A stretch of DNA of 64,000 nt, taken from the NCBI GenBank assembly GCA_944327275.1, contig CALVHB010000025.1:1-64000 (forward strand). Reading direction: 5' to 3'. Below are positions 38,210 through 39,044 of the stretch, in pieces. The translations under genes and the position numbers were made by a program. The stretch's first letter is position 1. Every line of letters begins with the position of its first letter. The notes beneath the pieces are model-generated. The model saw only the letters and a list, made by a program, of their open reading frames with translations. It did not search any database and was not told where the DNA came from. This DNA is from Candidatus Gastranaerophilales bacterium (GTDB lineage Bacteria > Cyanobacteriota > Vampirovibrionia > Gastranaerophilales > Gastranaerophilaceae).

Positions 38210-38251
38210 TTGTATTAAATGTAAAATAATATATGATAAAATAAGATGTAT

Positions 38252-38319
38252 AGAAAGGAGTACGTATGAGTTTGTTAACTAATTTTTTCGGGGGGGGGGC
38301 GACTTTAAGCTGTTTATGA
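38252..38319 (+). promoter_or_regulatory. Phase-variable-type start: strong RBS and ATG separated from pilin frame by G10 tract
   Basis: AGAAAGGAG (38252-38260) precedes ATG 38266. Its frame encodes MSLLTNFFGGGATLSCL and stops at 38317-38319. The downstream ORF at 38316 has no ribosome binding site of its own. With 11 or 8 G instead of 10, the 38266 frame runs on through G-D-F-K-L-F into the pilin frame without a stop. This is the layout of slipped-strand ON/OFF switches. Confidence 0.65.
38290..38299 (+). repeat. G10 homopolymer tract
   Basis: Ten consecutive G in an AT-rich genome, located 24 bases after the ATG with the good ribosome binding site. No other G run of this length was noticed in the window. 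Either a mutational hot spot used for phase variation or a sequencing-length uncertainty. Confidence 0.95.
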
Positions 38320-39044
38320 GTCCTTTAAATATTGGTGTAGAAAATGGTAAACATTACAATAATGCCAGACAAATATTTAAAAGCTCATTTATTAAAGGAT
38401 TTACTATTGCAGAAGTCTTGATTACTTTAGGAATAATTGGTGTTGTTGTAGCACTTACATTACCATCTATAGTTGCGAATTATCAAAAAAAAGTTGCAGT
38501 TGCAAAGTTGAAAAAGGTATATTCTTCAGTAGCACAAATTTTAGAAAAAGAACAGGTTGTGGAAAGTTTGGATGAGTGGGATAATTCAGAGAAAATTTTA
38601 AAAAAATATTTTGTCCCAAATTTCCAAGGGGCAAAAGTTTATTCTGCAATTTCTAATAATGGATATAGGGTAATGTGCAGAACGTCTTGGTATAAGTATT
38701 TTTGGGCTACAGGTGTTGGGATATCAACTCCATTCAAGTCTGATACTGCAGCAATAGAGTTGTCTGATGGAACTTGTATAGGTATAAATCCAAACCCGAC
38801 TCGTGACGTTTTTATTGATATCAATGGATCGTATAATCCCCCAAATAAAGCTGGGAAAGATTTATTTTTCTTTATAGTGAATTCTGATGGCCGATTGTTA
38901 CCTTATGGGCATGATTGGAGATATGAACAAGTTAACAGAGGAAGAGTTGGTAGTTGTAATAAACAGGATAGTGGTGGCGGAAAGGTTTGTGCTGCCAAAA
39001 TAATGATGGATAATTGGGAGATGAAAAAGGATTATCCTTGGTAA
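38316..39044 (+). CDS. Type IV pilin-like / pseudopilin protein
   Basis: 242 residues from ATG 38316, or about 259 if translated from ATG 38266 after a one-base change in the G tract. Prepilin peptidase site KG-FTIAEVLITLGIIGVVVALTLP, with the conserved Glu at +5 and a long hydrophobic helix, then a globular Cys-containing domain (CRTSWYKYF, ELSDGTCIGINPN, FFIVNSDGRLLPYG, CNKQDSGGGKVCAAKI). Such proteins assemble into pili or type II-like pseudopili; Ca. Gastranaerophilales genomes are known to carry many. The leader (31 residues or 48) is longer than usual. Monocistronic. Confidence 0.8.
   Translation: MSPLNIGVENGKHYNNARQIFKSSFIKGFTIAEVLITLGIIGVVVALTLPSIVANYQKKVAVAKLKKVYSSVAQILEKEQVVESLDEWDNSEKILKKYFVPNFQGAKVYSAISNNGYRVMCRTSWYKYFWATGVGISTPFKSDTAAIELSDGTCIGINPNPTRDVFIDINGSYNPPNKAGKDLFFFIVNSDGRLLPYGHDWRYEQVNRGRVGSCNKQDSGGGKVCAAKIMMDNWEMKKDYPW

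Follow-up and report, generated by a model that had tools for sequence, protein, structure and literature searches.

Ten-guanine runs with conserved flanks in the leaders of type IV pilin-like genes of Candidatus Gastranaerophilales: a candidate frame switch

The pilin-like locus between secA and ychF

The window, by which we mean the whole stretch of 64,000 nucleotides analyzed, comes from a genus of the Candidatus Gastranaerophilales (Melainabacteria), uncultured gut bacteria related to cyanobacteria. Between two genes reading as secA and ychF lies a type IV pilin-like open reading frame (ORF), preceded by a short leader ORF with its own ribosome-binding site and, within that leader, a run of exactly ten G (Table 1). 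The pilin-like ORF possesses the prepilin N-terminal cleavage/methylation motif; it scored 17.8 bits against the TIGR02532 profile (cut-off 16.3), which also scored a paralogue above its cut-off, while the 16.5 bits obtained against Pfam N_methyl were below the cut-off of 21.2.

Table 1. Features of the pilin-like locus, in positions of the window
Feature	Position	Strand	Basis or remark
Candidate promoter TTGTAT-N16-TATGAT, between secA stop and leader	38210-38237	+	by eye
Ribosome-binding site AGAAAGGAG of the upstream start	38252-38260	+	sequence; other copies laid out alike
Zero-frame leader ORF, ATG 38266-38268, 17 codons, stop TGA 38317-38319	38266-38319	+	frame read at ten G
Putative switch element TC-G10-C-N7-AGCT	38288-38311	+	sequence, motif statistics
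Element part TC	38288-38289	+	
Element part G10 (the tract)	38290-38299	+	on GC-skew-positive (leading) strand
Element part C	38300	+	
Element part AGCT	38308-38311	+	
Type IV pilin-like ORF, 242 aa, ATG 38316, prepilin N-terminal motif GFTIAEVLITLG	38316-39044	+	profile match

A preliminary description of this DNA had a ribosome-binding site and an ATG opening a 17-codon frame across the ten G, and a pilin-like frame starting one base before the stop of the first; the coordinates of both frames were reproduced. The pilin-like ORF is one base out of frame with the upstream ATG, and addition of one G to the tract, or removal of two, leads the upstream frame into that of the pilin with no stop, exactly as had been claimed. 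The run had also been called very improbable in such AT-rich DNA, which is in accordance with a rough estimate from base composition (GC about 0.33) of roughly 0.003 G10 runs expected on both strands of 64 kb. The window has no second G run of at least eight.

In this copy the TGA of the zero frame, i.e. the frame read from the upstream ATG at ten G, overlaps the inner ATG (ATGA), so that termination-reinitiation is possible and translational coupling could yield some pilin even at G10. The window copy appears unusual in this respect, a start codon being situated near the zero-frame stop in only 8 of 133 copies.

Ten-G runs and their flanks across the genus

That the locus is an isolated single-gene curiosity is ruled out by the abundance of such runs. 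In the window's own genome, 1.62 Mb in 56 contigs, exactly ten consecutive G occur 24 times, nearly always just past the start of type IV pilin-like genes, and runs of 8, 9 and 12 once each. Pattern counts in 24 genomes of the genus gave 115, 1079, 108 and 38 runs of 9, 10, 11 and 12 G, respectively, with up to 126 exactly-ten runs per genome; in other genera of the order there were 0-3 ten-G runs per genome. All genomes are assemblies, probably mostly metagenomic, and most of the named relatives found to have the element are MAGs of Candidatus Gastranaerophilales. Selected stretches totalling 381 kb and derived almost entirely from one relative (G006) had 6, 0, 0, 1, 80 and 1 runs of G6, G7, G8, G9, G10 and G11, respectively, and of the 77 pilins in the stretches of G006, 75 carried the tract. 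Most copies examined fall within the cleavable leader encoded by a type IV pilin-like gene, after a ribosome-binding site and a start codon. Related genomes without the tract but with the same start had been named as evidence against a switch; upstream of ychF a pilin with exactly G10 was found in seven genomes, despite differing leaders. At this site the pilin is absent in several genomes and no clean empty site was seen. Viral contigs yielded no phage-borne copies with the pattern, and the matches in unrelated phyla (L116, L121, L128, L132 and L133) look like chance occurrences of a short pattern in 257 Gb.

The tract is part of a longer element with the consensus TC-G10-C-N7/8-RGCT, from which the motif boundaries were set. 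The strict form, TC-Gn-C-N7-RGCT, occurred in 33 genomes 445 times with G10, 18 times with G11 and 10 times with G9 (445/473 or 94% G10), and the reversed control pattern 0, 0 and 1 times, respectively. The spread of lengths to be expected of a simple slipping tract is thus not present at motif tracts, and length variation between loci and related genomes, a property of contingency loci, was found only in the sister species G002 described below. In most copies RGCT is situated 7-10 bases past the tract, compared to a background of 0.15% per position, and its position spans different codon phases and both gene orientations. Among fetched pilin tracts the motif accompanied 119 of 157 with G10 and 13 of 51 with other lengths, a comparison confounded by genome and fetching mode.

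About a third of the scored copies are inverted, with the gene on the other strand, C10 and the same flanks reversed. In the stretches from G006 and G018 the G run was on the regional-majority strand 80:0, whatever the strand of the gene. Regional GC skew gives the same (leading) strand, gene-inverted copies included, the exceptions being a few short stretches or ones with near-zero skew. Listed contigs of other genomes with several copies are strand-uniform by eye, with a single switch in contig C52 of G004. Shorter G runs are weakly polar (203:154 for G4 and 38:18 for G5). A genome-wide marker resembling KOPS, Chi or an uptake signal is not favored, because the copies examined are mostly in pilin leaders and shorter runs show such weak polarity. 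A silent-cassette model is not favored either, since the scored copies each come with a ribosome-binding site and start of their own. To our knowledge, neither a fixed flanking motif nor a replication orientation is a feature of described contingency tracts.

Some relatives and copies depart from this pattern. In G002 (L215-L234), a sister species of the same genus, the pilin genes carry G11 or G12, the remaining tracts range from G8 to G15, strict-motif copies were not found, and the non-pilin poly-G genes are surface- or glycan-like by eye; this species seems to present a more classical contingency-locus picture inside the same genus. A related family (L091, L096, L102-L104 and L122, from E08__bin45 and O72 bins) has the usual length G9 (TC-G9-CGACTCCTCTAAGCC) and mostly needs one more base. 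Two species have G10 with TC...C flanks between two genes, just before the ATG of the second gene: in L042 (position 1502, minus strand; contig C30 of G010) it lies between ZorA- and ZorB-like defence genes, and in L054 (position 1502, minus strand; contig C10 of G004) between genes which by eye are like those of L042. In L049 (position 1502; contig C2 of G008) G10 is located mid-way in a long repetitive adhesin-like ORF, and the open frames differ on either side.

Reading frames around the tract and their explanation

Loci were considered scorable if they had an upstream ribosome-binding site and start and a downstream prepilin motif. Since pattern matches contributed to their selection, the shares of G9 and G11 among them do not represent population frequencies, for which the whole-genome pattern counts are the better source. 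The pilin frame was open in almost all of the 142 scorable G10 loci, and one additional base was needed to join the frames in 133 of them, none in 9 and two in 0; a change of one repeat unit thus changes the frame, as in simple-sequence contingency loci. This relation is not one inherited spacing, because the distance from start to tract occurs in all three phases. A stop within 12 nt was found in the zero frame of 88 out of 89 gene-sense copies, mostly at offset 5, 6 or 7, tracking the phase of the start, and in the third frame of only 12 out of 89. The pilin-frame codon lying over the zero-frame stop is TTA or CTA in 86/89, and the rare CTA accounts for 37/89, compared to 5% of leucine codons in the same ORFs. 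Because the stop is conserved and the rare codon enriched, the zero-frame reading appears to be real and its early end selected.

In 63 of 133 loci the stretch from the tract to the mature pilin lacks a start codon. Mature pilin ORFs have a median length of 226 aa and reach at least 120 aa in 120 out of 121 cases, and the G10 pilin loci look like intact genes which need their frames joined. Copies with G11 were in frame in 13 of 20 scorable cases. In the window's own genome one copy (L059, position 1336; G000:C45:12335) has an 11-base run interrupted by T (GGGGGGGGTGG) and is in frame, so this pilin looks locked ON; a search for such interrupted 11-base copies returned mainly ordinary G10 with N8 spacing and few interrupted ones. 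Leaders in L034, L100, L158, L201 and others contain stretches resembling translated repeats (e.g. CHSEGVYPKESSLLLIPKAGLLRHKPRNDK) between tract and mature pilin, all kept in open frame, and the leader seems to be insertion-tolerant.

Judged from sequence, a frame switch in the pilin genes is well supported. Because the same arrangement returns throughout the genus and preserves the frame relation, it is a genuine device of frame control rather than a sequencing error. The phase-variable switch of the preliminary description stands with respect to this genus-wide frame control, but not with respect to free slippage of the Neisseria or Campylobacter type: the length is nearly fixed where a spread would be expected, so a simple slipping contingency tract is not supported. 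The explanation we favor, with a probability of about 0.5, is a replication-coupled switch at the DNA level between OFF (ten) and ON (eleven), with unusually buffered length. Read from the sequence, translation from the strong upstream start ends at G10 after a short peptide, while with one more base it carries on into the intact pilin, and the orientation of the element with respect to replication is the same for genes on either strand. A replication-coupled change of one base in the G run, from 10 to 11 and back, could then restrict expression in each cell to a few pilins out of a large repertoire. The approximately 4% of motif copies with G11 (18/473) fit few pilins being ON per cell. The replication orientation and the inverted flanks indicate the DNA rather than the RNA level, and the fixed length together with selection on the zero frame alone indicates a tract that rarely changes. 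As the length is sharply ten and RGCT is conserved, a sequence-specific factor, which is hypothetical, or strong selection on the motif is suggested to hold the tract at ten. The switch is also favored by the variable length of pilin and other tracts in G002 and by the position of the window's tract on the GC-skew-positive strand. Against it speaks the uniformity of the 94% at ten, far greater than in known slipping tracts (PMC4965091). Moreover, a mostly-OFF tract should drift to nine equally easily unless held, and stops are selected in the zero frame only and not in the third, as if other lengths were hardly visited. A more specific version, in which a hypothetical trans-acting factor reads TC-G10-C-N7/8-RGCT during replication, holds the tract at ten and occasionally directs a +1 change, thereby controlling tens of pilins, is in our opinion unlikely.

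The main rival of the DNA switch is programmed recoding, in which the DNA remains unchanged at G10 and a fixed, small amount of pilin is produced through -1 ribosomal frameshifting or +1 transcriptional slippage on G10/C10. It would account for the fixed length and the constant need for one base, for the early stop conserved in the zero frame only, and for about 95% of loci looking OFF although the genes are intact; a slippery run with conserved zero and shifted frames, as in -1 frameshift sites, is indeed present. However, a stimulatory RNA structure downstream, expected at such sites, was not found: the 70 nt past the tract contained no stem-loop, with a mean z of about -0.1 in gene-sense and 0.0 in inverted copies. 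A recoding signal should also follow the coding strand, whereas the orientation follows replication and not transcription, and inverted copies have C10 in the mRNA with flanks reversed. Transcriptional slippage is characteristic of A/T runs of about nine or more, while the run here is G or C; homopolymer insertions in the transcriptomes of E. coli and Buchnera were confined to A/T runs (PMC5574713). We regard recoding as rather unlikely on these grounds.

A primary role of the motif as a DNA site, serving pilin recombination or gene conversion or else ssDNA-dependent insertion, with only a secondary effect on the frame, is still less probable. The conserved flanks, fixed length and strict replication orientation resemble attC sites of chromosomal integrons (PMC11023631), and the leaders of many paralogues are nearly identical, but the constant +1 at different start distances and the selected zero-frame stops would be left unexplained, and a recombinase and element ends were not found. 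The least credible explanation, an assembly or sequencing artefact in which a true in-frame run of eleven is systematically called ten, appeals to the errors of short-read platforms at poly-G or poly-C of at least 8 (PMC4235727), and we reject it because assemblies of the genus also contain runs of 9, 11, 12, 14 and 15 G, ten recurs in many independent assemblies, and conserved rare-codon stops would be pointless in a frame never read.

Comparison with known systems

In the literature searched we found no paper that describes poly-G tracts, phase variation or frameshifts for the pilins of the order. Poly-G switches are textbook cases of random slippage. In this one genus runs of exactly ten are nearly all of one length, one base out, with one motif and, where tested, one replication orientation, and the combination of run, conserved motif and orientation suggests that surface pili have a dedicated on/off switch. 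Either sequence context holds and directs slippage, or dozens of genes are expressed via a fixed off-by-one frame; neither alternative was found described in the literature searched. In this common gut lineage many pilins will probably be truncated or given a wrong start by gene callers.

Type IV pilins are varied by recombination in Neisseria pilE, with its upstream G4, and in the R64 pilV shufflon. Like the switch proposed here these are DNA-level devices, but they consist of one expressed pilin with silent donors or of C-terminal shuffling, while the copies described here are equipped with a ribosome-binding site and start of their own and bear the element in the leader. The attC sites of chromosomal integrons are similarly constrained in orientation relative to replication (PMC11023631); here, in contrast, the G run lies inside a reading frame, and no integrase or attC-type hairpin was found. 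In the contingency loci of Campylobacter jejuni and Neisseria, as in ours, a G tract lies inside the frame of a surface gene that is a single base away from ON (PMC4965091, PMC4235727). In C. jejuni colonies, however, phase-variable loci were spread over G8 to G12 (257, 214, 431, 77 and 9 for G8, G9, G10, G11 and G12, respectively), unlike the uniform tract with conserved flanks described here; switching occurs at about 10^-3 per division and was found to be determined mainly by repeat number rather than by flanks (PMC4965091).

The closest described case is the poly-G tract of the sortase pili of Bifidobacterium breve, where slippage in bbr_0113 and bbr_1889 switches the pili (PMC9187656). 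In this gut commensal, too, a G tract whose length sets ON or OFF is located between an ORF providing the start or secretion signal and the pilin ORF. It differs in having one or two tracts per genome, G10-G12 between strains and mixed within a culture, and its pili are of the sortase type, with no shared DNA motif or replication-orientation rule reported (PMC9187656), whereas a genome of the genus studied here has a tract of nearly fixed length in tens of type IV pilin-like genes.
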